Shown here: piece after piece, positions 29,390 to 59,272 of the stretch
Numbering within the stretch: position 1 is the first letter of the stretch
How the letters are laid out: every line of letters begins with the position of its first letter
IMG/VR virus record: IMGVR_UViG_3300035661_000011
Location: 62,001 to 126,000 of that record
Reading direction: 5' to 3' (one strand)
Source of the DNA: a virus
DNA: 64,000 nucleotides
The notes under the pieces: generated by a model
Database searches by the model: none
Told to the model about the DNA's origin: nothing
The model's input: only the letters and a program-made list of their open reading frames with translations
Translations under genes and position numbers: made by a program

Positions 29390-29818
29390 GTGGCAGAAAA
29401 CGAATTCAAATTTAAAAAGCTAGTAGTTGGCTCAGATATAACACGACAGTTAAACTTAAAAACAAATCCTACAAATGGACACAGTCTACCAATTGTTATA
29501 AACCAGTTGTCAATGTATCATAAAGACGTGGCGTATCCAACTCGTATGTTTGCATCAGAGGAAGACGTATGTGGGTTAGTATCTGGGGACATTGGTAACT
29601 ACATAGTCATTTGGTCAACTGGCACTGTGAAGTGTGTAGCGCAGCGCAAACACATTTCTAGTGCACACGGCACGTATCGATACGTTCGGACTAGTCAGTT
29701 AGATAAAGAAAGCGTTATAAGACTTAATAACTATCTACAACAAGTCGAAATAATTATGACCGAACGTTTACAAGAATTAACTTCAACTGACACAATAGTT
29801 TACACCAACGAATTATAA
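29390..29818 (+). CDS. Early protein with one copy of a repeated phage module, 142 aa
   Basis: GTG at 29390 is chosen as start: GGAG lies 6 bp upstream. The earlier in-frame ATG at 29354 is inside the leader hairpin. Residues about 47-115 match a module found in the proteins at 56223 and 57596: Met-Phe-x4-Asp-Val, then Tyr-Ile-Val-Ile, and an end motif LDKESVIRLNNYL. Function is unknown. Early promoter use and the shared module suggest a host-takeover factor (inference). Confidence 0.5.
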   Translation: MAENEFKFKKLVVGSDITRQLNLKTNPTNGHSLPIVINQLSMYHKDVAYPTRMFASEEDVCGLVSGDIGNYIVIWSTGTVKCVAQRKHISSAHGTYRYVRTSQLDKESVIRLNNYLQQVEIIMTERLQELTSTDTIVYTNEL

Positions 29819-29838
29819 ACTTTTAAAAGGATATTTTC

Positions 29839-30438
29839 ATGAAAACTACTTTATTAATTATATTTACTATTTTGATTAATTGTGAGTGCCACATCGGTTA
29901 TAGCAAATCTATTAAACCGCCTTTAACTGAAACTTACAAAGCTGTTATTACAAACACGCAATATGATATTGATTTTAAGAAACATGGAAACAATAAACAT
30001 TATGCGGATGCAAAGTTGTTAAAGTCGGTATGTGGAGTGGAATCAAAATTTGATGTAAAAGCAAAATCTAAGAAGGGAGCCAGTGGTATCTGTCAGATTA
30101 TGCCCAAGACATGGAAATACATAGCGAGTAAAAATAAAACTTTACCAGCACATGACACAAAAGTTCCGAGTCAATCTATTGAAGTGGCATCGTTAGTAAT
30201 TGATGATGCAGCAAATACTTGGAAAAAATTACCAAAGGGAAGAAATAAAACCGCTGTAGTTTTAGCATCCTATAACGCAGGGCCAACTAATATCAAGAAA
30301 GCATCTAAGCGATGTAATAGTACCAACTTTGCAGTGTTACAAAAGTGTTTACCTAAGATAACTTCTAAGTCACACGCAAAAGAAACAATTAACTATGTAG
30401 CTTCTGTACAAGAGCTATATAAAAAACTACCTTTATAA
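29839..30438 (+). CDS. Sec-exported SLT-type lytic transglycosylase, 199 aa
   Basis: An N-terminal hydrophobic segment (residues 1-18, ending near Cys-Glu-Cys) looks like a signal peptide or signal-anchor. The catalytic domain shows the SLT signature: Glu68 in GVESKF, ASGICQIMP at 81-89 and ASYNAGPT at 143-150. Such enzymes cut the glycan strand of peptidoglycan by forming 1,6-anhydro-MurNAc. Export suggests it is a lysis or periplasmic enzyme rather than a tail protein. The site AAAAGGATATTTTC precedes the ATG, and it follows an early-type gene on the same strand. Confidence 0.75.
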   Translation: MKTTLLIIFTILINCECHIGYSKSIKPPLTETYKAVITNTQYDIDFKKHGNNKHYADAKLLKSVCGVESKFDVKAKSKKGASGICQIMPKTWKYIASKNKTLPAHDTKVPSQSIEVASLVIDDAANTWKKLPKGRNKTAVVLASYNAGPTNIKKASKRCNSTNFAVLQKCLPKITSKSHAKETINYVASVQELYKKLPL

Positions 30439-30451
30439 TTAGGAGAACGAC

Positions 30452-30877
30452 ATGGAAAAGATAAATGGTGGTGGGCTGGATAATTTAATCGGTAGATTAG
30501 TGCGGTATAAAGATGCAGCCAATTACTGGAAATTAACCGAACCGATGTGGGTGTTAGGCTGGTACATCGACAAATGTGTAACGTTGGTGTTAGTTGATGT
30601 GGATAACAAAACACATGAACAAGACCTATCGGTGTGTATATTCGAAGCACCACTTGTGACCGATAAACCTAGTAATAACATTGTGCACCACGCTGGGTTA
30701 AATTCGTTAATAGGTAAACGAGTTTCACACACTAGCCCAGCAGGCCCAACCGTTATTTCAGTTGTGTTTGACTGGTATAGGGATAGCAATGGTGAAGTTA
30801 GATTAATACTCACGGATGAGCACGGGTTTTTAAAATATAATATTTGTGTTGAAAACAGTAAAGTGTTAGACGAATAG
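30452..30877 (+). CDS. Hypothetical protein with internal duplication, 141 aa
   Basis: Two similar halves are seen: GGLDNLIGRLVRYK near residue 7 and AGLNSLIGKRVSHT near residue 81, each followed by a strand pair and a 'VxLVLxD / RLILTD' segment. This looks like a tandem duplication of a roughly 60-residue beta domain, perhaps SH3-like. It starts 13 bp after the transglycosylase stop and ends at a convergent palindrome. Function is unknown. Confidence 0.45.
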   Translation: MEKINGGGLDNLIGRLVRYKDAANYWKLTEPMWVLGWYIDKCVTLVLVDVDNKTHEQDLSVCIFEAPLVTDKPSNNIVHHAGLNSLIGKRVSHTSPAGPTVISVVFDWYRDSNGEVRLILTDEHGFLKYNICVENSKVLDE

Positions 30878-30883
30878 AACCTA

Positions 30884-30913
30884 GTAATAGGGAGCATTAA
30901 TGCTCCCTATTAC
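30884..30913. terminator. 30-bp perfect palindrome between convergent genes
   Basis: Centre GCATTAATGC with arms GTAATAGGGA. A run of ten T follows on the plus strand at about 30921, so it is a classical intrinsic terminator in that direction. Confidence 0.75.
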
Positions 30914-30935
30914 ATAAGTCTTTTTTTTTTACATT

Positions 30936-31409
30936 TTAAATTATTGGAATTGGTAAGTCAGCTAACGCAGTGATAATATCTGGATATGACAACTCTTTCT
31001 CTTTAATTTTATAAGCGCGTATTTGACAATCAATTACCCACTTGTTTAATATAACCGCTTCATCCTGATACTCATTACTAAACAGTGCAAGTTTACTAAC
31101 CTCGTCTACATCTTTAAACTTGAATGTATCATTCGTGACAGTCTTTACAATGAACGTTTCTATTTCCATAGCCAACTTTAAATGACTACGATCGTTTTCA
31201 TTTGTTATAGGTTTACCGTCAGCAGAAACCCCAAGTGTTCTCCCAGCTATCAACCCGTTTCGCACAGTTAGATACTCGACTAATGTAACAGGTACTACGT
31301 CATCTGGATAAGACTTATGTATCTTTGAACTATAAAATCCAAATGTAGACTTAGAGAAGAATAACTCCTCTCCAATTTCTTTAACTAATTTAGTGTTTTC
31401 ATCAGTCAT
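30936..31409 (-). CDS. Hypothetical protein downstream of a fibre gene, 157 aa
   Basis: ATG at 31409 overlaps the fibre stop by ATGA and has GGAGGG 4 bp upstream, so it is preferred over the longer frame from 31436. The protein is Asp/Lys/Glu-rich and helical. Coupling to a fibre gene suggests a fibre assembly chaperone, as is common downstream of tail-fibre genes; no family signature supports this further. Confidence 0.5.
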   Translation of the reverse strand: MTDENTKLVKEIGEELFFSKSTFGFYSSKIHKSYPDDVVPVTLVEYLTVRNGLIAGRTLGVSADGKPITNENDRSHLKLAMEIETFIVKTVTNDTFKFKDVDEVSKLALFSNEYQDEAVILNKWVIDCQIRAYKIKEKELSYPDIITALADLPIPII

Positions 31410-32725
31410 GACACCCTCCCTAATAAGAATACCCACCCTTCAAGGCTATGGTTACCAGTAGTGGCTATATATATACCGGAGTTTGGATATGGAAAGTATT
31501 CTTGATCCAACCCAAGACTAGCATCTACATTGCTAATGACACCACCAGTGCACCACGCTAATGGCGGCGATATAAATGCTAAATTAAACCATATGGTCAC
31601 CTGTCCATCAAGGTACGTTATGTACGGGGTTTGAATCCACTGTAAACACCATCCACCGTATAAATACTTTATTCCTCCAGCAGGGTAACCTACAGCTGCA
31701 AACGAGTTATATATCTCAGTTCTAATAGCGTTATCACGAGAAACCAAATCGTTATACAGTGTAGCGTCTCTATCAAATAACGTTTGATACAAACTGGTAG
31801 CTCTATCGTACGTCGTATTGTAGTTATTCGTTATAGTGGTGTTTAATGTAGCTACAGCGTTATCTATTTTAGAGTTTAATGTAGCTACAGCTGTATTGAT
31901 TTTAGCATCTAATACAGCTCGATTAGTTTCTATAAGTGCATTAACTGCGACTATAAGTTTGTTAAATACAGCGGTCGCATTTTGTGCTACACCTAACGAT
32001 GACCAAGCCCTAGGCGTTGTGTCAGTACCAGCTTCTGCTACAGCTTGTGTAGGGATACTAGATTTTAACACATATCCGCTGAGGTCAGGTGGAACATAAC
32101 TAGCATTTAAAGAATCGACTTTACTTTGAACAAACCCTAAATCGTTAGCTACAGAATCCACTCTATCCATTAAATCATTAAATATCACTGCTGGAGAAAG
32201 TGTAGTTCGTGATATACTTCCAAGTAATCTACTCAGTAGAAATATAGTTCTTCCGTTATTAAATATATCTGGACGAACAGTATCTGCACTTACGACATAA
32301 TCCCCTTCAAGCGATTTCCACGAATTAAGATCTAGTCTATCAAAACTTCCTAAGTCAACAATTTGTTGCAATAGAATAGCGTCATTTTCGCACCCTACGG
32401 CTTGATAATTAATTGTAGCACTAGACCATAGGCTAACGTCTTTTAAAAGGATGTAGCTATATACAATCGCTCCAATGACATCAATTTGTTTACTGTAAGG
32501 TGGTGACCATTCGAAATCTACATTTGGAACCAATGGAACAGTTACATTGTCTGATAAACGTATGGCGGTTACAGTGAATCCATTTTGATAAAATGCACCT
32601 TGTTTTGGAAAGATAGCACATTGGGTGATTGGAAACACTACTTCATTTTTTATGTTGTTACCCACTAATGTACCACTAGGGTCATAGACCACAGTAATCG
32701 CATTGGGTGTTGGTGGTGTAGGCAT
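31406..32725 (-). CDS. Tail fibre with shared N-terminal adaptor, 439 aa
   Basis: The first 135 or so residues contain the adaptor shared with the genes at 35438, 39956 and 50596: DPSG...GNNIKNEV, GAFYQNGF, a 'VDFEWSP' turn and INYQAVG. The middle (about 195-330) is a heptad-like coiled coil with repeated 'AVATLNSKID' type units, as in trimeric shafts. The C-terminal 100 residues hold many Trp, Tyr and Gly residues and are the likely receptor-binding tip. It is followed by a coupled small gene. Confidence 0.6.
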   Translation of the reverse strand: MPTPPTPNAITVVYDPSGTLVGNNIKNEVVFPITQCAIFPKQGAFYQNGFTVTAIRLSDNVTVPLVPNVDFEWSPPYSKQIDVIGAIVYSYILLKDVSLWSSATINYQAVGCENDAILLQQIVDLGSFDRLDLNSWKSLEGDYVVSADTVRPDIFNNGRTIFLLSRLLGSISRTTLSPAVIFNDLMDRVDSVANDLGFVQSKVDSLNASYVPPDLSGYVLKSSIPTQAVAEAGTDTTPRAWSSLGVAQNATAVFNKLIVAVNALIETNRAVLDAKINTAVATLNSKIDNAVATLNTTITNNYNTTYDRATSLYQTLFDRDATLYNDLVSRDNAIRTEIYNSFAAVGYPAGGIKYLYGGWCLQWIQTPYITYLDGQVTIWFNLAFISPPLAWCTGGVISNVDASLGLDQEYFPYPNSGIYIATTGNHSLEGWVFLLGRVS

Positions 32726-32790
32726 CTAAGACTCCTAAGGTTAAGTTATGCAACACATGATAACCTTGTGATAACTCAATAAATACTTAT

Positions 32791-32803
32791 TTATATATCA
32801 TCT
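32791..32803 (+). promoter_or_regulatory. Early-type phage promoter, variant TTATATATCATCT
   Basis: Variant with ATCATCT in place of ATTATCT, 73 bp upstream of the GTG at 32877. A small hairpin (AAACA-ATAA-TGTTT, 32812-32825) follows. Confidence 0.5.
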
Positions 32804-32876
32804 AGTAGAGTAAACAATAATGTTTTCTTTTGTTGCTATTACAATTTAATAGTTAATTATATTTTGGAGATTTACC

Positions 32877-33131
32877 GTGAAACACTTATTTACATTAAAA
32901 GATATGCCAACAACACCTTTAAACGATTTATACATTAAATCGTTTAAAGGGTATATTGAAATGATAAATAGCTTTCTTACATTGTATAAAGATGTTGGGT
33001 TTATTGCAACCCCAGAATACATCTCTATCGATGAGACGTTGTTGTCAAACCCCAATTATGCGCAGGTGGTTGCCGCTATGGCGTTAATGCCATATTCGTT
33101 AGTAGTTGACCACACTTTAGTTGGAGAATGA
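32877..33131 (+). CDS. Hypothetical early protein, 84 aa
   Basis: GTG start with GGAG 8 bp upstream (TTTTGGAGATTTACC). It is the first gene of a three-gene early operon that ends with a metallopeptidase. The protein is helical, without motifs that I recognise. A perfect 15-bp inverted repeat lies inside its coding sequence at 32916-32950. Confidence 0.45.
   Translation: MKHLFTLKDMPTTPLNDLYIKSFKGYIEMINSFLTLYKDVGFIATPEYISIDETLLSNPNYAQVVAAMALMPYSLVVDHTLVGE
32916..32950 (+). repeat. Inverted repeat inside a coding sequence
   Basis: CCTTTAAACGATTTA and its exact complement flank a 5-nt spacer (TACAT), encoding residues 14-25 of the 84-aa protein. In mRNA it forms a 15-bp stem shortly after the start codon. 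Confidence 0.7.
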
Positions 33132-33132
33132 A

Positions 33133-33369
33133 ATGAACAAAGATCAACTGATGTTAGGCGCGTTAGAAATTGCCACTCGTGTTGACGGGTGGAACAATGA
33201 AGTGTACTGTGCAATAAAATCAGTACAGCCAAAAACCCACACCATAGTGGTAGCTGGTGATAGTAATTTTGGATGGGACAGTAAATGGTCCGAGATTCTA
33301 AAACTCGGGTTCACGTGTTCAAGAAGCTATCCAAACCTTTATACCTTTGTTTTGGAGGAAAAGAAATGA
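33133..33369 (+). CDS. Hypothetical early protein, 78 aa
   Basis: ATG at 33133 is chosen: GGAG lies 7 bp upstream inside the end of the preceding gene. Earlier in-frame TTG at 33121 is less likely. The protein is small, mixed alpha/beta, with several Trp residues. It overlaps the metallopeptidase start by ATGA. Not recognised. Confidence 0.45.
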   Translation: MNKDQLMLGALEIATRVDGWNNEVYCAIKSVQPKTHTIVVAGDSNFGWDSKWSEILKLGFTCSRSYPNLYTFVLEEKK

Positions 33370-33899
33370 ACTACTTTAAGTTATTAAAAGAGTCGTTTGT
33401 TGTAGGTTTAAACACCTACCGTTGGATGGTGGATATTCAAGTGAATAGATTTATGACTTTTAAATCATTCACTGACTGGAATGGAATTCCAGTAATTAAA
33501 AGTACACACCTGATGCGATTACGATTAGGTGATTACCACTCGCCTATGAACAACGCCTGTGCATCAGCAGGTGAAAATATCATAATTATCCCAGACCACT
33601 GGGATGAATTACCAGAAGGGTTTAAACTCTTCATGTTATATCATGAGGAAGGACATATTCGAGGTAAACATTTCTTGACTACACCAACTGAAAACGCTGG
33701 TAAGGCGCGTTCAAAGTTTATTAAATGTGGGTTAGTTATGCCAGAGGAATTAGAAGCTGACAAATTCGCTTTTGATAACTTAGGTTTAGACATTAGTGTA
33801 TCAGCATTACAAGTTTGTAAAACTCTAGTAGCAAATGATGCACGTGGTAGAACCCATAGTGAAATTGATATGCGTATTGAAAAACTACGCAGCTACTAA
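33366..33899 (+). CDS. Small zinc metallopeptidase (HExxH), 177 aa
   Basis: Residues 93-97 read His-Glu-Glu-Gly-His, a zincin motif inside a helix (LYHEEGHIRG). A downstream LEADKFAF (Glu130, Asp132) has the E-x-[x]-AD form of the third zinc ligand in M48- and ImmA/IrrE-like peptidases. ATG at 33366 is preferred (GGAGGAAAAGAA upstream, ATGA overlap); a longer frame from 33285 exists. There is no signal peptide or membrane segment, so it likely acts in the host cytoplasm, perhaps degrading a host factor early in infection (inference). Confidence 0.6.
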   Translation: MNYFKLLKESFVVGLNTYRWMVDIQVNRFMTFKSFTDWNGIPVIKSTHLMRLRLGDYHSPMNNACASAGENIIIIPDHWDELPEGFKLFMLYHEEGHIRGKHFLTTPTENAGKARSKFIKCGLVMPEELEADKFAFDNLGLDISVSALQVCKTLVANDARGRTHSEIDMRIEKLRSY

Positions 33900-33910
33900 A
33901 ACGTTAAGTT

Positions 33911-33942: not shown

Positions 33943-33964
33943 TTCTCTTCCAATCGTTTTTTTT

Positions 33965-34391: not shown

Positions 34392-34408
34392 TAGCGCCTC
34401 ATTAATAA

Positions 34409-35437: not shown

Positions 35438-36892
35438 TTAATTTCCTATTGCAAATACACTATACCCAACTGCACCACCACCGTATGCGGTTGGATTACC
35501 ATTGCCATTACCGGCAACTACTCTTCCTCCACTCAATGTATAATCGCCCATTGTTAATTGGCATTGTGCCATAAATGTGTTGTTTAAAAGTTGTGCCCCA
35601 ATGTGTAGTATGTTGTTCGGAAAGGTTGCAGAAAACACAAACTGCCCTATGCCATTAGTGGTAGTCCCACGTACACATTGTATTAAGGTGTTTCCAATTC
35701 TAAGACTACCGCCATTAAACACACAGCTGTAAGATTGTGAGAATTGTAGTTGCATAGATCCACCAACGATATACCACGTGTTGACACCATCACATTCCAG
35801 TATAACGGATTCACCACCACCTAAAAACAACGTCCCAACAGTACCGCTATTACCCTTGAATACATTTAGTGCACCAGGATTTAATCTAATTAAATTGCTG
35901 TCACCCACATTAACCAATTCTACTCTTCCAATACCAAATGCACCAGCTTCTGGTAGAGTAATAGTTGAGTTGGCATATGTGTAATTAGCCATCTTAATTA
36001 TTAAACTTGCATCCTTAATACTTACTGGTAACACACCACCATCTGTAACGATAACCATTCTGAATGTAGTTGAGAAGTCCAACACAGCTTGTTTTATTAA
36101 AGCTGGACTCCACGATTTAGCTAGGGGTAATGTCCCATCGGAAACCTCCTGTGTAGTTGGAAGATCGCTTTTTAGAAGATACGGCGATAGGTCTACATTG
36201 GATATAGAGTTTATCGTTTGTGCTATTGTGGCATTTAAAGAATCTATCTTAGATTGAAACCCGCTTACAGCGGTTGTCATCACATCAAACTCTTGTTTAA
36301 TATACTCTAACCATTCTGCTGGAGCATCTAAATTCTTACTGATTAATTCTAACTCTCTCGAGAGTATATATACGTTTGATGTCTGACTAAGTAAATCGTT
36401 AATCTTTAACTTATTAAAAGCCTGAGAGTCGCCAATCAGACTAGACCATATAGTTAAGTCGTTCTGGTCGAATGTTCCAAGACTACCTATTTCAGACATT
36501 AATATCTGGTCAACTACTGCACCTACGGCATGGTACGATAGATGGATAGATGACCATTTAGTTTTATCTATTAAGACTACATAACTAAATGCGTCAAGTC
36601 CTAATAGCTGTTTAATTAAATTAAACTGTGGGGAGTAAATATAATCTACCCCTAGTTGTAATGTAACTAGTGTACGGAGTGTATGTGTTTCAGTTATAAG
36701 TATACCTTTAACCAATAGCCCGTCACTATAAAACGGACCATTCTTTGAAAACACTACAGGTGATGATACTGGGTCGGTTACTTCATTTGGAAAATAATTA
36801 CCTACTCGTAGCCCAGTGGGATCAAATGTAACTCCTGGGTCAGCACCAATTCCATCCTCATCAAAATCACCATCGAATAATTGTGTGGACAT
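35438..36892 (-). CDS. Tail fibre with shared N-terminal adaptor, 484 aa
   Basis: The adaptor begins after about 20 acidic residues: DPTGLRVGN, PNEV, GPFYSDGL, GVDYIYSP and LSYHAVGA, closely matching the fibre at 31406 through 'LGTFDQNDLTIWSSLIGD'. A coiled segment (about 200-235) is followed by a beta-rich C-terminal half with Gly/Asn-rich turns (AGNGNGN near the end), resembling trimeric beta-structured tips. It is probably an alternative receptor-binding fibre. A 34-bp palindrome precedes it. Confidence 0.6.
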   Translation of the reverse strand: MSTQLFDGDFDEDGIGADPGVTFDPTGLRVGNYFPNEVTDPVSSPVVFSKNGPFYSDGLLVKGILITETHTLRTLVTLQLGVDYIYSPQFNLIKQLLGLDAFSYVVLIDKTKWSSIHLSYHAVGAVVDQILMSEIGSLGTFDQNDLTIWSSLIGDSQAFNKLKINDLLSQTSNVYILSRELELISKNLDAPAEWLEYIKQEFDVMTTAVSGFQSKIDSLNATIAQTINSISNVDLSPYLLKSDLPTTQEVSDGTLPLAKSWSPALIKQAVLDFSTTFRMVIVTDGGVLPVSIKDASLIIKMANYTYANSTITLPEAGAFGIGRVELVNVGDSNLIRLNPGALNVFKGNSGTVGTLFLGGGESVILECDGVNTWYIVGGSMQLQFSQSYSCVFNGGSLRIGNTLIQCVRGTTTNGIGQFVFSATFPNNILHIGAQLLNNTFMAQCQLTMGDYTLSGGRVVAGNGNGNPTAYGGGAVGYSVFAIGN

Positions 36893-40983: not shown

Positions 40984-42195
40984 ATGTTAAGAGCAATTAG
41001 TATAGTACAAAGAGTAAAATACGACTGGGTAGAACTCCCAGTCACCACACTATTATCCAATTTAGATTGGACGTGGAGAACGCTTATAACTGTGATTGAC
41101 GAGAATACAGGTGTTGAAACACAGCATGATTTTAGTATGATACCAAACATACACAAGCTAGTGTCACACTTTCCAGCTGCAACTTTCAGTGATGTATTTG
41201 CCACGTACACTGGCCCGTTACCACCAGAAATACTACCAAAGATAGATATAACAAAAAAGAAATATTTATCGTATTACACACTTTGGGATTATCAACTAGA
41301 TGCGACTAGAGTTAATACATCCAATTCAGTTCTGTCATTTAATATAAACGATACCCCAGACTTAGAAATTACACCATCTAAATATTTTACTGATACGATA
41401 AACAGCTTAAAAGATAAAGTGTTATTTGTAATCAATGGTGTAATTGTATTTCCTGAGTACACTAATGGTAGGGTGATAATTCACAATGGTGGGTTAGAAT
41501 TAGATACAGCCGAAGAACAAAACTTAGGTGTAATTGACTTCTCTAATTTTAATGGATTTACACCGGTTGAATTTACACAACAAAACACAATTGTATTTTT
41601 TAGAGACACTGAAGTAACTACCTACCACGTTACATTAAAAGACCCCATTGTGAACGATTTTATGGTCGTGGTGAACGGTAAGCTACATATGTGTAACGAC
41701 GTGTACACTCTAGTTAATAAACACACCGTGGCTATTCAGGTGCGACATCAAGATGTATATAAAGAAGCAATGTATGCTGAGCCATCTACACTAAACTGGA
41801 TAGATAGAATATCACCGTATAGTAACGGGTATGATATTTCAACATTTAACCCTATGCGGTACATTACTTCTTTAGCTAATAGACTTCTATTATTATCTGT
41901 TAAAGGCGTAAGTGTTAAAACCTTGCCGTTAGTCACAACTGGATTTCCTTTAACGTTCTTTACCAATCACGATACCACAGATTTAATATTTTCATCGGAT
42001 GGAACACTAGGATACTACATAGCTAATGAGATGTTATCTGATAAGGCGGTTGTTATATCTGTTGCAAAACCTAGAGTGTATGATGCGATTTATGACACAA
42101 CAAATGTTTTAAACGAGAGTGTAATTGGTACAGGTGCATTATCTTCAGCATACGAGAATCAAACTGCAAAGCTAAAACGGATTTATGTATTGTAA
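40984..42195 (+). CDS. Putative virion structural protein, 403 aa
   Basis: The ATG follows GAGGAATTAAGTT. The protein is beta-rich with a Tyr/Thr/Asn bias and no membrane segments. Two internal stretches (about 145-190 and 215-250) each contain a 'VVNGK' or 'VINGV' strand and may be duplicated domains. Its location next to fibre genes and its composition point to a tail or baseplate role. The family is not recognised. Confidence 0.5.
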   Translation: MLRAISIVQRVKYDWVELPVTTLLSNLDWTWRTLITVIDENTGVETQHDFSMIPNIHKLVSHFPAATFSDVFATYTGPLPPEILPKIDITKKKYLSYYTLWDYQLDATRVNTSNSVLSFNINDTPDLEITPSKYFTDTINSLKDKVLFVINGVIVFPEYTNGRVIIHNGGLELDTAEEQNLGVIDFSNFNGFTPVEFTQQNTIVFFRDTEVTTYHVTLKDPIVNDFMVVVNGKLHMCNDVYTLVNKHTVAIQVRHQDVYKEAMYAEPSTLNWIDRISPYSNGYDISTFNPMRYITSLANRLLLLSVKGVSVKTLPLVTTGFPLTFFTNHDTTDLIFSSDGTLGYYIANEMLSDKAVVISVAKPRVYDAIYDTTNVLNESVIGTGALSSAYENQTAKLKRIYVL

Positions 42196-42249
42196 AATAA
42201 ACCACATTAGCGATAGTGTAGGTGGTAAACTATAAAGGATAAATTGATA

Positions 42250-44031
42250 ATGTCTGTTAAAAAAATAAGTTGGTCTAAAGCAAAAGGGTATGAGTGTAGC
42301 TCTAATGGAGATACTAGGTTTTCTGCCTTTTATGCAATTATGGAAGACGGTAGAACCTTGGAGCAACATTACCAGTGTGATGTTAAAGGTTATGATACTG
42401 GTGGAACAAATTGGAAGTTAGGTAAAGGTAAACCGCCTTTAGATACAACACAGAAGATGTTTCCTTTATATTTGAATTTATGGAAACGGTGGTGTAACAT
42501 TGGTGATAACTACGCTTCGCTTTTAGAACTTAAAGAGCTAGCTATAAGTAATGAATTTTATTTACGAGATTCATTTGCTACATCGCCAGTTAATCAAGCT
42601 CATGCGTTATCAGTTATACTAAACGATTTAGATAAAGTGTCTAAATCTAAAGTTAGCGTTGAGTTGTATACCGATGGTTCAGCGAGACCAAATCCTGGTT
42701 CTGCTGGATATGGATTTAATGGAACCGATTCACTTGGTAACTCGTACATTGGATGGGGACCTGTTGCTAGTAGGTCTACTAATAACGTAGCTGAGTTATT
42801 AGCGGTTGCATACGGCATTATTAGAATGCGAAGTGTTGTGAACAACTTAGGTAAGATTAAAATATTTGCGGATAGTGAATATGTAATCGAAAACTTAAAA
42901 TCTGTACCTAAATGGATTGGTAACGATTGGACGACTGACACTGGTCGTCCCGTAGCTAATGTGGAAGTGTGGAAGTTTTTAGATTCTACAATTATGGAAG
43001 CCAGAAATGCAGGTGTCGATATTAGCTTGCAGTGGGTCAAAGCACATAACGGCAATGCTGGTAATGAACTAGCTGATTTAAAAGCCAATGAAGGGCGCTT
43101 AATCGCGTTAGAATCACATATTGACTTACACTTTGAACTAACGGATTTACACAAGTTTGAAGTTACTAAATTGTTAAAGGTTAAAACCGTTAATAAAGCG
43201 GTTGCTCCTTTAAATAAATTGCTTTCAGCTAAACGTTGGTTTTTCTTTACAAATGTACCTGAGGAGATTGAGGGTATACCATTTTATTTTGCCTCTGTAT
43301 ACGAAGATAAAAAGGAGTATAATAATCGTAACTTAGGTAAACGTGCTCCAGACAGTATGTATGTGTTATTGTTAACTGATACCCGTATAACAGTTTTAGA
43401 TACAATCCGAGAATCTTTTAATAAAAAGTTTGAGGGTGAAACTTTACCAATTATAACATATCTCACGAAGATACAAAGTGCTAAAGTGTGGTCTAAGTTA
43501 GTTGAATCAATCGATGAATATTTGGTGTATAAAGGAAGTAGTGCTATTACTGTTGGTGGCGAATTACTTGGTAAATTACATTTCCCACCAAAGCTAGCGT
43601 GTAAAGTTCCTAAGATAATAACTTTAGGATACAATTGCATTAAGGAATATAAGTCTGGAAAACAAGGTGCACACTACTACGATATAACCAATAAAGTTTA
43701 TGTAACTGACACTAAGGGTAAATTGGCCATTAGTCCAGACTTTACAATGAGCACTAAGTTTCTCGATATACCGATTGTAATACCGTACACATCAGACGAT
43801 GGTTTGATTACTCCAGAAACATCAGATGTGATTCGATTAACTGTTAATATCGATATGCCGACTAGAAATACATTTTCTGCATTACTTAAACAAACAAAAA
43901 ATCCAGTTAAAATTACACTGATGGTCACAGAAAGTTTAGAGCGTAGTTGTAGAGTCTATGTGATAGTTGAAGTGGATAGTGACATCTGTATTTATTATAA
44001 CCCAGATTCAAATTTTAGAATAAAAAAATGA
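42250..44031 (+). CDS. rnh: RNase HI fusion protein, 593 aa
   Basis: ATG at 42250 (site AAGGATAAATTG) is preferred over TTG at 42244. Three parts are visible. Residues 1-130 form a domain seen in other phage proteins, with 'SWSKAKGYECSS', 'CDVKGYDTGG' and 'LGKGKPPL'. Residues 135-285 are a complete RNase HI with Asp142 (TDGSA), Glu182 (VAELLAV), Asp208 (ADSEY) and Asp276 (ELADLKA). The last 300 residues are not recognised. RNase HI removes RNA from RNA/DNA hybrids such as lagging-strand primers. Fusion with two extra domains is unusual. Confidence 0.7.
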   Translation: MSVKKISWSKAKGYECSSNGDTRFSAFYAIMEDGRTLEQHYQCDVKGYDTGGTNWKLGKGKPPLDTTQKMFPLYLNLWKRWCNIGDNYASLLELKELAISNEFYLRDSFATSPVNQAHALSVILNDLDKVSKSKVSVELYTDGSARPNPGSAGYGFNGTDSLGNSYIGWGPVASRSTNNVAELLAVAYGIIRMRSVVNNLGKIKIFADSEYVIENLKSVPKWIGNDWTTDTGRPVANVEVWKFLDSTIMEARNAGVDISLQWVKAHNGNAGNELADLKANEGRLIALESHIDLHFELTDLHKFEVTKLLKVKTVNKAVAPLNKLLSAKRWFFFTNVPEEIEGIPFYFASVYEDKKEYNNRNLGKRAPDSMYVLLLTDTRITVLDTIRESFNKKFEGETLPIITYLTKIQSAKVWSKLVESIDEYLVYKGSSAITVGGELLGKLHFPPKLACKVPKIITLGYNCIKEYKSGKQGAHYYDITNKVYVTDTKGKLAISPDFTMSTKFLDIPIVIPYTSDDGLITPETSDVIRLTVNIDMPTRNTFSALLKQTKNPVKITLMVTESLERSCRVYVIVEVDSDICIYYNPDSNFRIKK

Positions 44032-46591: not shown

Positions 46592-46625
46592 TGATGAGTA
46601 TCACAGGAATCTGTGATACTCATCA
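46592..46625. terminator. 15-bp perfect stem with GAAT loop
   Basis: TGATGAGTATCACAG and its exact complement, starting 13 bp past the stop at 46579. The next early-type promoter begins 10 bp after it. Confidence 0.7.
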
Positions 46626-49896: not shown

Positions 49897-50502
49897 ATGT
49901 CATTAATAAACTCTATACAAGCCAGACCAGATATGTATGTCGGTCCAACAACATCATATGAATCTGTTGGAAACGTTATCATGGGAGTAGTTGAACATTC
50001 AGTTTTAAGAAACCATGATATGGACGATCTGAAAATTACAATTACGTTAAACCATGACGGCATACACATACATGACAACGGGTGCACGTTACCTGTGAAG
50101 TTAGATGAATCAGTTGGTTTGTCTATGGCGGAGTTAATGCTTACCACCAATAGATTCAGTAGCCCAAAAGATGAAATTTATTGTTTACAAGCAGCTGTCG
50201 CTTTGTCGAGTACGCTTTCCATTAAGGTACACATTGGAAAGTACACATACTGTCAATCGTACGCCAAAGGTTATCCAAATGCACCACTTGAATATCAAAC
50301 TGGTTCTTTAGGAAGTAGCAACGTTAAAACTGCTACAGACATTACATTTGTCCCCTGTAAAAACTATTTCGGCTGTGAATGGCACTGTACCGCTTTACTT
50401 GACTATTTAAGTTCTGAGATTGACATCTTAATTGGTCCACTTAAGAGTGTAACTGTAGATGTGTGTCTGGTAACCAAATCAACAATTAAATCTGGTCGTT
50501 AA
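49897..50502 (+). CDS. Stand-alone GyrB-like ATPase domain, 201 aa
   Basis: Residues 10-16 read RPDMYVG, the hallmark of the start of type II topoisomerase ATPase domains (RPGMYIG). Residues 57-67 read HIHDNGCTLPV, matching the DNGRGIPV box. The usual Glu-Asn pair helix is poorly conserved (VVEHSV) and no transducer or toprim domain follows, so ATP hydrolysis is uncertain. It could be a decoy or regulator of host gyrase/topo IV, or a partner of the GHKL ATPase (inference). Confidence 0.55.
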   Translation: MSLINSIQARPDMYVGPTTSYESVGNVIMGVVEHSVLRNHDMDDLKITITLNHDGIHIHDNGCTLPVKLDESVGLSMAELMLTTNRFSSPKDEIYCLQAAVALSSTLSIKVHIGKYTYCQSYAKGYPNAPLEYQTGSLGSSNVKTATDITFVPCKNYFGCEWHCTALLDYLSSEIDILIGPLKSVTVDVCLVTKSTIKSGR

Positions 50503-50595: not shown

Positions 50596-51789
50596 ATGCC
50601 TCTCCTTAAATACGACCGTACAGGAATAGCTTCTACTAATTTTGTACCAAACGAATCACATCCTGTTAATCTAACACCAGGTTTTATAATAGCCACAGAA
50701 CAAGGGTTCTTCTATACACAGTCGTTAAAAGTGGTATCGATGCCAACTAACACTATGTTAATTCGTGGAAAGGATTATATTCTAATTGGATTCTCTGCTA
50801 CAGTTACAGAAACCACTGGACTCGAAGTACACGCTGGTATACAGTTAATTAATGAAACCTTGAGTGGTACAGTAGAACTTACTTATCAAGCCGTAGGTGG
50901 ACTTATAGGTGCTTCCAATTCACTAATTTACGATTTAGTAGAACAGCTAAAACATAAACCAACCGAATTGGAATATAGTCAGATTACTAATCTACCAGAT
51001 ATGTTTCCTCCAGCTGACCATCTACATGACATAATGGATTTAGATGGAGTCACTGCAATCGTCCATTATGCGAGAGATATAGTTGAAGCTTTGTCAGGTA
51101 GACGTGCTCCAATTCAATCTGGGTTAAATGCTTTAACTATGATTAATAATCAGAATAAAGTGATAGCTGAGTTACTAAAGCGTCTAAATGACATGGAGGT
51201 TGTCCAGTCTACACTGGTGCAAAGTGGTGGAACTGTGATTGGTGTACAAGGTCCTATTGGTCCTAAAGGAGACCCTGGTGTCGGTACGCAAGGTCCAGCT
51301 GGGCCTAAGGGTGATCCAGGGGTTGGTATACGCGGTCCAATTGGACCACCAGGAATAGTTGACAACTACCATTTAGCAGATGCACTTAATGTACAGTTAA
51401 TAGACTTAATTCCAAATGGTGGGATTACAGCTAACGACACACTGTTTACCGCTATCCAAAAGTTAGTATCACACCTTACACCTACAACAAATATATTCAC
51501 TATAGTACCACCAAGCTTTGGGTTCCCAGTTAATATTGGTGACACTATGACAAACCCAAATATATTATTATCTGGTGTAACTAACACATTGAATTTACCA
51601 CAAAGCGTAAATGTAACACCTGTAACAAACGTTTCGTATGGAACACTAACACTTACCGCCAGTGGCGGATTTACGTATATTAATAACCCGTCTATTAGCA
51701 CACCTCATATAGACGATACATTTACATACGAAATACGAGACTCTATTGGAAATATAACACATCGCACCGTAAACATAAACCTTTTATAA
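50596..51789 (+). CDS. Collagen-like tail fibre with shared adaptor, 397 aa
   Basis: The N-terminal 115 residues are the adaptor also found in the minus-strand fibre region (DRTGI, PNESHPV, GFFYTQSL, KDYILI, LTYQAVGG). Residues about 215-255 are Gly-x-y triplets rich in Pro and Lys (GPIGPKGDPG), a collagen-like rod. A beta-rich C-terminal part (about 290-397) would be the tip. This copy lies 10 kb from the other adaptor genes and on the other strand. Confidence 0.65.
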   Translation: MPLLKYDRTGIASTNFVPNESHPVNLTPGFIIATEQGFFYTQSLKVVSMPTNTMLIRGKDYILIGFSATVTETTGLEVHAGIQLINETLSGTVELTYQAVGGLIGASNSLIYDLVEQLKHKPTELEYSQITNLPDMFPPADHLHDIMDLDGVTAIVHYARDIVEALSGRRAPIQSGLNALTMINNQNKVIAELLKRLNDMEVVQSTLVQSGGTVIGVQGPIGPKGDPGVGTQGPAGPKGDPGVGIRGPIGPPGIVDNYHLADALNVQLIDLIPNGGITANDTLFTAIQKLVSHLTPTTNIFTIVPPSFGFPVNIGDTMTNPNILLSGVTNTLNLPQSVNVTPVTNVSYGTLTLTASGGFTYINNPSISTPHIDDTFTYEIRDSIGNITHRTVNINLL

Positions 51790-51793
51790 ATAG

Positions 51794-51829
51794 ACAATGA
51801 CACTGCCAGTTAACTGGCAGTGTCATTGT
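51794..51829. terminator. 36-bp perfect palindrome after the collagen-like fibre
   Basis: Arms ACAATGACACTGCCAGTT folded at GTTAAC, 4 bp past the stop and followed by AGTTTTTATTT. Confidence 0.75.
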
Positions 51830-51883
51830 AGTTTTTATTTATAGGTGTCAACGATAGTGTATACTACAAAAATAGGAACTGAT

Positions 51884-54355
51884 ATGTCACACTCAATGGT
51901 AATTGATTCAATCTACTTAAAAGGTTATAAACCTTTAGTGTTGAATAATGTAAACTCTATACAAATTGCTTTTAAATCAGTGTTAACTTTAATCTTAGGA
52001 ACTAACGGTTGTGGTAAATCTTTTTTACTGAAAGAGTTAACGCCTCTACCAGCAACGCCAGTTATGTTTATGGATAAAGGTGAAAAACATATACACATTA
52101 GTTACGGCGGAAATAGTTATGTTTTATCATCATACGTTGGTAAAAGTGCTAAGCACACATTTGTAAAAAATGGAGAAGTGTTACATTCTTTAGCTACTAC
52201 ACGTGTACATACTCAACGGGTAATTGAAGAATTTAACTACACCAATAACATTCATAAATTGTTAATTGGAGATATGATGTTTACGCAGATGTCTCCACAG
52301 GAACGTAAAGATATATTAACGTTGATAAACCCATTATCGTTAAACTACGCCTTAGCGTTCCACGATGATTTAAAAGAACAAATTAGGGATACCAAAGTGA
52401 TACTGAAACATATCACTATCAAAAACGCAAGTGCTAAAACTAAATTAAAAGAATTAGATTTACCAGATAATTTAACAGAAGTGAAATCTGATATTGAATC
52501 AGAAATTAGCGATATGTTACCATTCTCAGTAATTGATGTTAAACGAGAAGGCGGTATGCCATTATCTGAAATGCTATATCAAGCAGACCAATATAGAAAA
52601 CAGTTTGCTAAAAAATACGACAATAGAAGAGTGCCAGTTGAAAACATTAATTCAATTGAAGACTTACGTGACTATATCGATTCTTTAGATAAAGATTTAG
52701 CCGTTACACAATCTGAAATAAACACTTTAGCGAATGAACTATATTCTTTAAATGAAGTAAGTGCTGAGTTAGCAAACAGTGAAATGTCGAAAGTTGAGTT
52801 AGAAACTAAAGTTAAACATTTTACATTCGAATTAAAACACGACTACCAAATTGCTGCTCTACACTTCAATGACCATCTAAGGCTCATCAGTGGGTTAGAA
52901 CACATAGAAACCTCCTTAAACGAGATGTACGGATGGATACCAGATGAATATATCAGTGTGGAAGACCGTCCGACTATCCGTACGAGACACACCAATGTAA
53001 TTTCTAACAATTCACATCTGTTAAAAAAACTAGATGGGTTAACTGAAAAGCTAGGACATTACAATGACCCAGACTTAATGGTAGGTTGCCCTAAATGTGA
53101 TTTTGTATTTAGTAAATCAGGTGAAGATGTAGAGGTGATTAAATCTCGTCTTAAAAGACAAATACAGGAGACAGAATTTAAGTTAAAGGAATTTCCTGAA
53201 TTAATAGAAACGTACAGTGTGTTGGTTGAACGTATTTCAATTATAGAAAACGCTGAACAACTGTTACTTAAGTTAAAGCGTAGTACCCATGAATGTTTCA
53301 ATTTTTGGACTATGTTTAATGACGATAGCGATATCTTATTTAAGCGTGACATTACCATTGGTAAACTACACGGCTATATCTTAGATGTAAAATACTCGTA
53401 TGAAAAATCATGTATAGAGACTGAGTTAGAGCAGTGTAATAAAGTGTTGAAGTTGTACGACTTACATGGAAATAAAGCTAGTATACGTATATGTGCATTA
53501 ACTAACACACTCGAAGTAAAACGTAAACATCTTTCTAAAATACAAAATCAATTACACGAGTGTAAAAGTTTACACAAATACATTGGGTATTTTCAAAACA
53601 TTTCTAAATCATACGACGAATTACAAGTCGCTATTAAAGCTAACGTATTAGACACAATAGACCGTTCTATTAAGAATAAATCATCAAGGAGATTAAGTTC
53701 GCTATACGGTAAACTAGGTGAGTTAAATGAATCTGCAAATATGTTAAATCATTTAACATCAGCTATTGAAGAATTGGATGTAGAACAACATCAGTTAAGT
53801 GAAAAACTTAAAAGTTTACTCACGGCAGAAGAACTAATCTCTCCAAATAAAGGTTTTATTGCATCTCAGATGAAAGGTTTTATTACCAATTATATTTCCA
53901 GAATCAATAAAGTATCGAATCAGGTGTGGACGTATCAGTTAGAGTTATCCCCTTGTTCTTTAAATAATGGTGTTTTAAACTATGTTTTTCCATTAAGTGT
54001 TAAAGGTACTATAGTGCCAGATATTGTAGAGACTTCTAAGAGTCAGGAGGAAATGGTTAACCTATCGTTCACTATGGTAATGCGAGATTTCTTAAACCTT
54101 GGTCAGTATCCATTGTACTTTGATGAAACCGGAGCTAAATTCGATGACACCCATAGACACAACCTTATAAACTATATGAAATCACTTATTGCTTCGGGTA
54201 AGTGTAGTCAAATGTTTTTTATTAACCATTACGATAGTGTTTTCAGCGCATTCAGAAACACTAATACGGTTGTATTAGATGCTGCTAATGTAACAGTGTC
54301 ACAACCATATAACCAGAATGTAACATTTAATGAGGAGTACAACCCTCAGTATTAG
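51884..54355 (+). CDS. Rad50/SbcC/gp46-like recombination ATPase, 823 aa
   Basis: ATG at 51884 (AGGAACTGAT upstream) is preferred over GTG at 51845. The Walker A GTNGCGKS is at residues 39-46. Long helical arms carry a CPKC zinc-hook at Cys402/Cys405. A signature-like SKSQEEMVNLS and the Walker B LYFDETG lie near residues 720-748, followed by an 'INH' switch His. This is the layout of Rad50 and T4 gp46, which drive end resection with a nuclease partner (Mre11/gp47). No such nuclease was seen in the window. It acts in recombination-dependent replication. Confidence 0.7.
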   Translation: MSHSMVIDSIYLKGYKPLVLNNVNSIQIAFKSVLTLILGTNGCGKSFLLKELTPLPATPVMFMDKGEKHIHISYGGNSYVLSSYVGKSAKHTFVKNGEVLHSLATTRVHTQRVIEEFNYTNNIHKLLIGDMMFTQMSPQERKDILTLINPLSLNYALAFHDDLKEQIRDTKVILKHITIKNASAKTKLKELDLPDNLTEVKSDIESEISDMLPFSVIDVKREGGMPLSEMLYQADQYRKQFAKKYDNRRVPVENINSIEDLRDYIDSLDKDLAVTQSEINTLANELYSLNEVSAELANSEMSKVELETKVKHFTFELKHDYQIAALHFNDHLRLISGLEHIETSLNEMYGWIPDEYISVEDRPTIRTRHTNVISNNSHLLKKLDGLTEKLGHYNDPDLMVGCPKCDFVFSKSGEDVEVIKSRLKRQIQETEFKLKEFPELIETYSVLVERISIIENAEQLLLKLKRSTHECFNFWTMFNDDSDILFKRDITIGKLHGYILDVKYSYEKSCIETELEQCNKVLKLYDLHGNKASIRICALTNTLEVKRKHLSKIQNQLHECKSLHKYIGYFQNISKSYDELQVAIKANVLDTIDRSIKNKSSRRLSSLYGKLGELNESANMLNHLTSAIEELDVEQHQLSEKLKSLLTAEELISPNKGFIASQMKGFITNYISRINKVSNQVWTYQLELSPCSLNNGVLNYVFPLSVKGTIVPDIVETSKSQEEMVNLSFTMVMRDFLNLGQYPLYFDETGAKFDDTHRHNLINYMKSLIASGKCSQMFFINHYDSVFSAFRNTNTVVLDAANVTVSQPYNQNVTFNEEYNPQY

Positions 54356-54365
54356 GAGAGAGTTT

Positions 54366-55510: not shown

Positions 55511-55512
55511 CT

Positions 55513-55550
55513 GTATGTCCACTGTGTAGTTAACTACACAGTGGACATAC
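55513..55550. terminator. 38-bp perfect palindrome after the spike gene
   Basis: Longest palindrome in the window: GTATGTCCACTGTGTAGTT and its mirror, beginning 3 bp past the stop. Confidence 0.75.
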
Positions 55551-55567
55551 TAGCCGCTATCATTTGT

Positions 55568-55587
55568 GGCAGAATTATCATTCTGCC
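55568..55587 (+). promoter_or_regulatory. Leader hairpin GGCAGAAT-TATC-ATTCTGCC
   Basis: Eight-bp perfect stem just upstream of the gene at 55622. The preceding CGCTATCATTT (55556-55566) could be a weak member of the early promoter family, judged by its TATCAT core and spacing to the hairpin. Confidence 0.4.
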
Positions 55588-55621
55588 GTCTATTTACGTA
55601 TAACGTCATTGGGGTAAATTC

Positions 55622-56137
55622 ATGACAACAAAAGAAGACCAAATACATCGTGTAGAAGATTTACAAAATAACCTATTGGCGGCTAATCCAGAATTAAGTA
55701 AAATTTCTAACTTTAAATACACAGCAAAATCTGCTCCACCACCTGGGTTTAATGGAACTAAAATATTTGTAGGTGGCACTGTGTCAGCTATAGATTGGCA
55801 TACGCATATCTTAGACGGTATAGCTGTACCATATTTTGATTCGTTATCATCAACTGATATCACCGAGATAACTAGACAGAAGGACATATTGTGTAATATA
55901 CACCTTTACTGTATAACTTGTGAGGTAACTTGGATTAATGTATTAGATATGATATCTAGTGCATACACTAAAGGTAAAATAACAATTATTCAGGTAGTTC
56001 CAGATGGGTTTACACCTCTGGAGTTAATTGAGATTAAAGCCGTGTTAGATAGGTTAGCGATAGTGGGCGGAATTGGTTACGTTGATAGTGATTTATCGCG
56101 TGCTGTTCAGGTGGTCAATCTGTGCTTTAAGAAATAG
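55622..56137 (+). CDS. Nucleoside 2-deoxyribosyltransferase-like protein, 171 aa
   Basis: Residues about 47-110 follow the pattern of this Rossmann-like family: strand KIFVGGTVS, then DWHTHIL, a strand ending PYFDS, and 'ITRQKDILCNIHLYCIT'. A later TIIQVVPDG strand and helix complete the fold. Family members cut or exchange N-glycosidic bonds of deoxynucleosides. The catalytic Glu cannot be placed with certainty, so binding without catalysis is possible. It is a single-gene unit with its own leader hairpin. Confidence 0.5.
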   Translation: MTTKEDQIHRVEDLQNNLLAANPELSKISNFKYTAKSAPPPGFNGTKIFVGGTVSAIDWHTHILDGIAVPYFDSLSSTDITEITRQKDILCNIHLYCITCEVTWINVLDMISSAYTKGKITIIQVVPDGFTPLELIEIKAVLDRLAIVGGIGYVDSDLSRAVQVVNLCFKK

Positions 56138-56157
56138 GATATTCATTAAAATTTAAG

Positions 56158-56170
56158 ACTTATATCATCT
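56158..56170 (+). promoter_or_regulatory. Early-type phage promoter, variant ACTTATATCATCT
   Basis: Variant with TATATCATCT, 52 bp upstream of the ATG at 56223. The following GTAAAGT-ATTTC-ACTTTAC stem (56176-56194) is nearly the same as the one at 57541. Confidence 0.55.
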
Positions 56171-56222
56171 TTATGGTAAAGTATTTCACTTTACTAATTT
56201 CAATAACCCTAGAGGTAACTAT

Positions 56223-57014
56223 ATGCCAAACGTTTTCACTATCCCTAACTCAGCTGATGAAATTCAAACACTTCGTACTGAAAGCAACGTGTATGTTAAA
56301 CTGGATGTTTCCTTTCGTGAACAGGTAAAGTTGTTTAGCACTGCAAACGATATTGTTTTGACTGATGCCGATATTGGATTCAGTTTTATTCTATTAGATT
56401 GGGCTTTAACGTGTCGTGTTGTAGGTCGTCATCAGCGGGGTGTGTTCTCAGATGTAAGTGGTTACGTTACAGATTCTGGTGTAAAGGTGGCAGTGCTTCC
56501 AGAACATAAACTCAACGAAGATGACATACAACGACTCAGAGAGTATGCTTCTAACCTATCAGTAACATTACCCGAACCCCCTCCAGTTTCAAAATTATTA
56601 AACACCGCTGTGTTAGACGCAACGTATAACGCTTCTAAGAAGTTTTATACTGAATGCGCCATAGTAGCTGCACAGTTGGTTGACGAACTAAATACAATGT
56701 CTGAATTTAATGACCTGGTGTACATTAATGACGAAGGTGAAATTGTGCCCACTGGGTATTCTTGTGATTCTGAGTTCTCACCACTAGTAACAATTTCTCG
56801 CCAGTGGATGGCGGGTAACAAAGTTTTAGTGTGCGCTCAGGAGTTAGATATTGAGTTGTTTAACAACACCGTTGACTTACGCGAATGGTTAGTTGGTTTA
56901 AATGAAAACGTACAATATGCGGAATGGATTCACACTGCCATCGCAACTCGTCTTAAAAAGGTTGAGAAGCAGCGTTTAATTGATTCTGGTCTTGAACCAG
57001 ATGATTTCTTTTAG
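56223..57014 (+). CDS. Early protein with repeated phage module, 263 aa
   Basis: AGAGGTAACTAT leads the ATG. Residues 33-110 contain the module: VKLFSTANDIVLTDAD, FSFILLD, and an end motif LNEDDIQRLREYA. This copy is close to the central one of the 558-residue protein at 57596 (FETAADINLTDAD). The C-terminal half (about 135-263) is helical, with an acidic end. Unknown function; early promoter. It is probably derived from the same ancestral domain as its neighbours. Confidence 0.5.
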   Translation: MPNVFTIPNSADEIQTLRTESNVYVKLDVSFREQVKLFSTANDIVLTDADIGFSFILLDWALTCRVVGRHQRGVFSDVSGYVTDSGVKVAVLPEHKLNEDDIQRLREYASNLSVTLPEPPPVSKLLNTAVLDATYNASKKFYTECAIVAAQLVDELNTMSEFNDLVYINDEGEIVPTGYSCDSEFSPLVTISRQWMAGNKVLVCAQELDIELFNNTVDLREWLVGLNENVQYAEWIHTAIATRLKKVEKQRLIDSGLEPDDFF

Positions 57015-57027
57015 GTCTATGTAATAG

Positions 57028-57061
57028 GTAGGTACGAGACACATATGTGTCTCGTACCTAC
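57028..57061. terminator. 34-bp perfect palindrome
   Basis: GTAGGTACGAGACACATATG and its mirror, 13 bp past the stop at 57014. TGTTTTTTTTTC follows ten bases later. Confidence 0.75.
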
Positions 57062-57121
57062 ATTTACTAATGTTTTTTTTTCATTGCCGTTTGCAATTTA
57101 TATATGTAACGGAGGTGTGTA

Positions 57122-57514
57122 GTGAAAGTTATAATTGCAGGCGGTAGAAACTTTACAGATTATAGGACACTTTGTATAGCCGTTAAACTAAGTGGTTTTG
57201 ATAACGACTATAACATCACCGAAGTGGTATCTGGTAAAGCAAGAGGGGCTGATACAATTGGTGAAATTTATGCCACTCTATTCGATATACACATAGAGCC
57301 ATTTCCAGCAGATTGGGGTGGGCCAAATAAGAAAGCGGCTGGGTTTATTCGTAATCAGCAAATGGCAGACTATTGTGAACCAGAGGTAGATGGTTTAATA
57401 GCTATGTGGGACGGTGAATCTCGAGGTACACTAGATATGATAACTAGAGCAAAGAAACGCAAGTTAAAAGTTTTCATATACAATTACGTAGAACGTAAAC
57501 CCATAACTCTTTAA
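57122..57514 (+). CDS. SLOG-superfamily (YspA/DprA-like) nucleotide-binding protein, 130 aa
   Basis: GTG start with GGAGG 7 bp upstream. The protein shows the DUF2493/YspA pattern: GGRNFTDY at 7-14, VSGKARGADT near 35-45, FPADW at about 58-62, a RNQQMADY helix, and IAMWDGESRGTLDMI. SLOG domains bind nucleotide-derived or ADP-ribose-like ligands, and some act in anti-phage or NAD-related signalling. Phage copies are common; their role is not settled. It could sense or consume a host signalling nucleotide (inference). Confidence 0.7.
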   Translation: MKVIIAGGRNFTDYRTLCIAVKLSGFDNDYNITEVVSGKARGADTIGEIYATLFDIHIEPFPADWGGPNKKAAGFIRNQQMADYCEPEVDGLIAMWDGESRGTLDMITRAKKRKLKVFIYNYVERKPITL

Positions 57515-57522
57515 ACAAACAG

Positions 57523-57535
57523 ACGTATATTATCT
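57523..57535 (+). promoter_or_regulatory. Early-type phage promoter, variant ACGTATATTATCT
   Basis: One mismatch to the consensus, 60 bp upstream of the ATG at 57596. A leader stem GTAAAGTGA-A-TCACTTTGC (57541-57559) follows. Confidence 0.6.
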
Positions 57536-57595
57536 ATGTGGTAAAGTGAATCACTTTGCTAACATTTAATAAATTAAAACAATTAGAGAATTATC

Positions 57596-59272
57596 ATGGC
57601 AAACGTTGTTAAATTACACCCTGAAGAAATAGTGTCTTTAAAGCTAAGATTTGAAGGTATAGCTGAAACCCTTAATCTTGGGGATATCGTTGTTTTTGTC
57701 AAAGAAGAAGATGTACGTGTTGAGTTAGTTGGCCCCGGTAATCCGTTTATCATTTTAGAAAATCGGAAACTCGGGTTCATTGTACCAATGTTTTTCGATC
57801 ATTCAAACTGTGATACGTTTGAAACTGTAAGATTATCCAACACTTACAGCTGGATATCAGAGTGTAGAATCGATGAACAGAGCGCAGTAATGTTAACCGC
57901 CTACATAGGTAGACGATCTACCCGGTCATTCAATGTGGAATTTTATACAGGTGACGATTTGTATGAGGATATGGTCACATTTGTAAACACGTTACGGTGG
58001 CTACACGAAAGTGATTTTTACAAAAGTCAAAATATTCACCACTGTTACCATCGGGATGAGGCAATGCCTCTACTGGATAAAAATAAACCCATTGATATAA
58101 AAGGGGTTTTACTTAAACAAAAAGCAAAGCGGGACAAATTTAAACACGCAACTACGTTAAACGATAAAACAATTGTCATTCCAAAACACTGGGTGATGGA
58201 ATTGCGATTAATGCTAGTACAGGACATTAACTTAGATGATATAGATATCCACTACATCGGTGGACCTAGTAAACAAAAACCTGTATTGGAAAACAATTTA
58301 TGTATTCCAGACTGGCATGACCTTAAAGTGTTTGAAACTGCCGCTGATATAAACTTAACTGACGCAGATAATAACCACGATTTTATTATTTTAGAAAGCG
58401 GATGTGTTGGGTTTGCATTTCTTAACGGTGCAGGTGTTATTAGCTATGTGGTTGGCGATGGGGACATAGATACCGTTCTATGTGACATTAGTGTAGGACG
58501 TCTGAAATGTTTTTTAGAGCTGTACAAATATATGAATGGTGCTAACGGTGCCGAAAACAACTCATTTCATTTAGACCCAGATTTGTTACGTAAGTTACAA
58601 CTCAGAACCGTTGGGTTACCAAACTGTGATATTGGAGAACTTTATTTATACGATACATACTGCCAAGTTGATGTATTTTGGGACATAAATAGCATATCTT
58701 ATACAACTAAGTCTATTCCAGACGTATTTATCACAATGTGCGATATGGTTGTTTGGGAAAGAAAAGGTCTATTTTCTGCACACCGTACAACAACCAGTAG
58801 AATTGTCACTGTTAACACACTTGAACAAATCAAAAGTTATGCTACCACCGCAGGTAAGTCTCTGGATCCCGAATCACAAAGTAAACTGTACGGTTGTATT
58901 TATTCTATCGCGGTATGTAGCGAACCTAGACATTATGTTCTTTCAGAAGAAGTGTTAGATGAACTTAAGCTCCAAGTTTTAGATCCGCAATATATACACT
59001 CTGTAGGCGGTTCTGTTAAAGTGTATCCTAATTTAGGTGACGTAACGGAAGCCGAGTTACACAAACCGTTTATCAGCCTAGATTCATGTAGTGTTAATGT
59101 AGCGTTAACCGATGAGGAAAATTCTGAGTTAAAAGAGGTGATGGGAGATAGAGTGGTGGTGTACCCATTGGACAAAGGAAGTTTTACATCTAGTCCAGAC
59201 TGGGTATTGGATGAAGAAAGTAAATTGCGACTGAACGAATATCTGGCGCGACCAGACGTAAAGTTAGTTTAA
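57596..59272 (+). CDS. Early protein with three or four copies of a repeated module, 558 aa
   Basis: At least three module copies are visible. Copy A (29-112): DIVVFVKEEDV, PFIILEN and RIDEQSAVMLTAYI. Copy B (242-312): LKVFETAADINLTDAD and DFIILES. Copy C (472-552): VKVYPNLGDV, PFISLDS and LDEESKLRLNEYL. A degenerate copy may lie at 346-415. Each unit is about 75 residues: a beta pair, a 'FIxL' strand, a variable loop, and a terminal helix with RLxxYL. I do not recognise the domain. The site GAGAATTATC leads the ATG. Confidence 0.5.
   Translation: MANVVKLHPEEIVSLKLRFEGIAETLNLGDIVVFVKEEDVRVELVGPGNPFIILENRKLGFIVPMFFDHSNCDTFETVRLSNTYSWISECRIDEQSAVMLTAYIGRRSTRSFNVEFYTGDDLYEDMVTFVNTLRWLHESDFYKSQNIHHCYHRDEAMPLLDKNKPIDIKGVLLKQKAKRDKFKHATTLNDKTIVIPKHWVMELRLMLVQDINLDDIDIHYIGGPSKQKPVLENNLCIPDWHDLKVFETAADINLTDADNNHDFIILESGCVGFAFLNGAGVISYVVGDGDIDTVLCDISVGRLKCFLELYKYMNGANGAENNSFHLDPDLLRKLQLRTVGLPNCDIGELYLYDTYCQVDVFWDINSISYTTKSIPDVFITMCDMVVWERKGLFSAHRTTTSRIVTVNTLEQIKSYATTAGKSLDPESQSKLYGCIYSIAVCSEPRHYVLSEEVLDELKLQVLDPQYIHSVGGSVKVYPNLGDVTEAELHKPFISLDSCSVNVALTDEENSELKEVMGDRVVVYPLDKGSFTSSPDWVLDEESKLRLNEYLARPDVKLV

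Follow-up and report, generated by a model that had tools for sequence, protein, structure and literature searches.

A duplicated domain in three putative early genes of a chimallivirus-like jumbo phage

Three genes of one viral record, here called A, B and C, encode proteins in which similar segments recur, and this raises the question of whether the segments are copies of one domain and what such a domain could do for the virus. The genes lie in a 64,000-base window (bases 62001-126000; "the window" refers to this whole stretch) of the virus record IMGVR_UViG_3300035661_000011, which has 154,505 bases in total. PHROGs matches in the record revealed genes for PhuZ (E 4e-57), a nuclear-shell protein (E 6e-16) and RNA polymerase beta subunits (E 1e-132 and 1e-108). 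A phiKZ-like major head protein and a helicase were also matched, and in the head protein the nearest named relatives of the phage are only about 25% identical. The presence of PhuZ, a nuclear-shell protein and a multisubunit RNA polymerase points to a chimallivirus-like phage, and we therefore conclude from gene content that the source virus is a predicted nucleus-forming, phiKZ-type jumbo phage with a multisubunit RNA polymerase. A single sister contig, a 70-kb IMG/VR record (G001), runs collinear to the 38-109 kb part of the record; it spans gene A, but neither B nor C.

Judged by sequence comparison, the three proteins contain six diverged copies of one domain, one in A, one in B and four in tandem in C (residues 1-108, 189-316, 319-440 and 443-558; Table 1). 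The initial annotation had reported a unit of about 75 residues in the same three gene products, with three, perhaps four, copies in C. Leave-one-out profiles and shuffles confirmed the copies at all three genes and the count for C could be fixed at four, whereas the proposed length was too short: the unit comprises about 115 residues (range 108-128), and the earlier motif covers only the core of this larger domain. The domain is of the alpha/beta type, and a segment alignment showed that an N-terminal strand/helix segment, 'V.L.PEE...LKLR', is part of it. Conserved blocks occur in the order 'V.L.PEE...L+L', 'VKVF....DI.L', 'FI.L', a variable loop and 'LDEES..RL..YL'. Taken literally, the earlier motif holds in part, with D-[IV]-x-L-x-D-A-D present in B and C2 only and RLxxY in A, B and C4. 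The C-terminal region of B and the linker of C (residues 109-188) are not further domain copies. The GTG start of A at 29390 is backed by a Shine-Dalgarno-like GGAG and by the sister gene, which also begins with GTG.

Table 1. Window coordinates of the three genes, their domain copies and their upstream elements.
Feature	Position	Strand	Remarks
Early-promoter motif TATATTATC upstream of A	29321..29329	+	
Leader hairpin of A	29331..29364	+	perfect 15-bp stem
Protein A	29390..29818	+	142 aa, one copy; GTG start
Domain copy A	29396..29773	+	leave-one-out rank 1; 0/2,000 shuffles
Early-promoter motif TATATCATC upstream of B	56161..56169	+	
Leader hairpin of B	56174..56196	+	
Protein B	56223..57014	+	263 aa, N-terminal copy and C-terminal region
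Domain copy B	56223..56567	+	leave-one-out profile; modelled with moderate confidence
Early-promoter motif TATATTATC upstream of C	57526..57534	+	
Leader hairpin of C	57536..57565	+	sequence resembling that of B
Protein C	57596..59272	+	558 aa, four tandem copies
Domain copy C1	57596..57919	+	weakest inside C; leave-one-out rank 1; 1/2,000 shuffles
Domain copy C2	58160..58543	+	nearest to B; leave-one-out profile
Domain copy C3	58550..58915	+	leave-one-out profile
Domain copy C4	58922..59269	+	leave-one-out profile; AlphaFold2 model pLDDT 82, pTM 0.76

For the leave-one-out analysis, a profile from the remaining copies was searched against about 160 genome proteins. The left-out copy ranked first each time (E 3.9e-7 to 0.007), and the best non-member reached E 0.017. 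The E-values were lowest for B (4e-7 to 3e-5) and C2 (6e-7 to 2e-6), followed by C3 (2e-4 to 4e-3) and C4 (3e-4 to 1.5e-3), with C1 (2e-3 to 7e-3) and A (5e-3 to 7e-3) being the weakest two. When each copy was shuffled 2,000 times, the real score was reached once for C1 and never for the other copies, with a slight bias favoring the copies as segment limits were picked with the alignment already in hand. Pairwise comparison alone was marginal; the best pair, B and C2, yielded E of about 0.004-0.01 against 432 ORFs over a 28-residue match with 14 identical residues. The membership of A is modest, its profile-profile score (hhalign) being below that of one unrelated protein. Chance likeness of short motifs among unrelated proteins would explain why pairwise scores are low and why no good pairwise match extends beyond 28 residues, but it conflicts with the leave-one-out profiles, the shuffles and the matching predicted topology, and we regard it as very improbable. 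For B and C2-C4 it is effectively refuted, while the scores behind A and C1 are weaker.

The whole-genome search for more copies suggested by the initial annotation returned these six and none beyond, as the domain profile found no seventh copy in the 154-kb record or in the sister contig. The gene at 46613 had seemed a candidate for an extra copy via its sister gene and received no support from the domain profile. Two further proteins with weak scores were rejected: by eye, the G000:52037 protein resembles an HNH-type mobile gene, and the protein at window position 49897 a topoisomerase-like ATPase.

Structure prediction was consistent with a compact unit. Five AlphaFold2 models of C4, made from an input alignment of seven domain rows only, ranged from pLDDT 66 to 82, and the best (Table 1) showed the order beta-alpha-beta-beta-beta-alpha-beta-beta-alpha (E5-7 H9-15 E32-35 E49-52 E57-62 H64-77 E79-83 E86-90 H98-108). 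The copy in B was modelled with nearly the same order (E4-7 H12-15 E35-38 E54-57 E62-67 E80-82 E88-97 H99-115), the second helix of C4 being a short turn in B; its pLDDT was mostly 73-88 and weaker near residues 71-90, and the C-terminal region of B was not resolved by the model. The aligned segments were thus not predicted as unrelated folds, although the two models share alignment rows and therefore speak for a compact unit able to fold, without giving independent proof of homology.

Foldseek searches returned nothing significant for C4 (best E 0.23 in PDB and 0.16 in BFVD) or for B in BFVD (best E 0.38). The weak fold matches include I-OnuI, I-SceI and a maturase, and the predicted elements contain the alpha-beta-beta-alpha-beta-beta-alpha order, so that the helix/strand order is partly similar to that of LAGLIDADG homing endonucleases. 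The domain could accordingly be read as a degenerate domain of the LAGLIDADG type, disseminated as a mobile gene. However, these matches have probabilities of <=0.2 and poor TM-scores of about 0.25, none of the six aligned copies has the acidic end of the LAGLIDADG helix (the catalytic residue), and there is no Pfam or other sequence match, which makes a homing-endonuclease origin scarcely credible.

Significant matches to a described family were likewise absent from Pfam, PHROGs, NCBIfam, PADLOC and PDB sequences. A profile search of 16 records of nucleus-forming or jumbo phages did not detect the domain; of two marginal matches (E 0.009 and 0.016), one, in Vibrio phage sm033, was not supported by direct comparison and the other lies antisense to a major head gene and has stops inside. 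Scans of IMG/VR for relatives of A, B, C and neighboring genes found only the sister contig, and GTDB genomes yielded none, both scans using short near-exact peptide patterns by which diverged relatives could be missed. The sole homologue found is the sister gene of A (L008:8004-8429, 65-66% identical); B and C had no detectable relatives in the collections searched. The 65% identity of A to its sister is below the median, which is 82% over 70 pairs of genes. A appears to evolve fast and B and C are without relatives, a pattern as expected for host-engaged genes. As far as these searches reach, the domain is an undescribed, lineage-specific paralogue family. The initial annotation had proposed an undescribed family that expanded in early phage genes, and the lack of any library or fold match, together with an early-promoter motif at all three genes, supports this proposal.

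AT-rich early-promoter motifs have been described for jumbo phages with their own RNA polymerases (PMC7598289). In our record, TATAT(T/C)ATC sits 60-70 bases before the start of A, B and C and is followed by a hairpin in each case, in agreement with the early promoter and leader hairpin first noted for these genes. TATATNATC has 14 matches in the window, compared to 4.5 expected by chance, and TATAT(T/C)ATC also precedes the genes for PhuZ, the nuclear-shell protein and one RNA polymerase beta subunit. We infer from the promoter motif that A, B and C belong to an early expression class. The 15-bp stem of the A hairpin is perfect in both phages, the sister copy (L008) lying just after TATATTATC at 7936, and differs by two compensatory pair changes (G-C to A-T and T-A to C-G). 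As both sides of these pairs changed, selection appears to act on the structure itself. B and C have leaders that are similar to each other and to the one upstream of the PhuZ gene; leader similarity alone is therefore no sign of entire genes having been copied together.

A second class of early leaders was observed, in which TATATCATC is followed by a conserved hairpin, GCTATTA...TAATAG or GCTAAT...ATTAGC, with concerted changes in its two arms. It occurs at record positions 6562, 50352, 56452 and 94794 (window 32794), and in the sister at L008:11411, L009:12583 and L009:17584.

The hairpin leaders of early genes could serve as targets if the domain bound nucleic acid, either DNA or hairpin-bearing early RNAs, and a compact, strand-rich domain in tandem would suit such a role by giving avidity. 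This is unlikely in view of the charge of the proteins: B and C have a pI of 4.48 and 4.92, which places them in the lowest 6% and 19% of proteins, with net charges of -11 for C2 and -12 for C4, and therefore a basic surface common to the copies is not indicated. Similarity to nucleic-acid-binding folds was also never significant in Foldseek. That B, C2 and C4 are strongly acidic would instead fit DNA mimics, acidic decoys blocking nucleases or defence proteins of the host, and anti-restriction would agree with early expression. However, copy A carries a net charge of +3 and its sister, at net -1, is close to neutral. The domain as such is therefore not acidic, and this speaks against a DNA-mimic role common to all copies; moreover, the phage nucleus already shields the DNA (PMC11797060). 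We consider DNA mimicry quite improbable.

Host-takeover factors can be found among the early genes of nucleus-forming phages. Since the domain has no family or structure match and is absent from the other named phages searched, we tentatively propose that it is a fast-evolving, lineage-specific module, duplicated in three early-motif genes, that may well bind proteins in host takeover or counter-defence. In the proposed mechanism, the six homologous copies would have arisen through duplication across the three genes, which the virion RNA polymerase would transcribe right after DNA entry. A would be a factor with a single module, B would combine one module with another region, and C would serve as a scaffold or multivalent binder with four modules, and all three would act on host proteins before the phage nucleus matures. 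A more specific version is doubtful, namely that the domain is a new fold used as a modular host-targeting scaffold, whose single, fused and four-unit forms would bind to different proteins of the host within minutes of infection.

The proteins resemble phiKZ-type early takeover proteins in their early class (by promoter motif), in belonging to mostly uncharacterised proteins and in phage type, but they have no sequence match in the phiKZ genome and differ by the tandem multi-domain layout. Early phiKZ proteins include ribosome-binding factors such as phiKZ014 (PMC10914614). In our judgement, jumbo phages commonly carry orphan early families, and an orphan paralogue family is a common kind of finding. 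The newly defined domain has clear boundaries and several natural copies and is suited to expression and pull-down, and its single and tandem forms let one ask if reusable modules are the building blocks of takeover proteins in these phages.

Several other features of the record were observed. Between B and C, window 57122-57514 encodes a YspA/cpYpsA-related SLOG-family protein (Pfam PF10686, E 3e-10). The RNA polymerase subunit gene at record 35360 contains a 71-base stretch that is copied near the start of an orphan gene at window 60089, for which no phage homologue was found (window 60185-60255 vs. record 36470-36540, L003:17470-17540; 90% DNA identity, peptide YKIASESGKIMTSRILGTKHST). The peptide presumably represents the trigger-loop region of beta', and the copy could be a recently captured fragment, possibly left behind by a mobile or homing element. 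At record 51399-52435, two adjacent genes absent from the sister phage look like HNH/NUMOD-type mobile genes by eye. A separate duplicated family is found at record 41227-42999, consisting of two pairs of neighboring paralogues (E 3e-5 and 2e-4).
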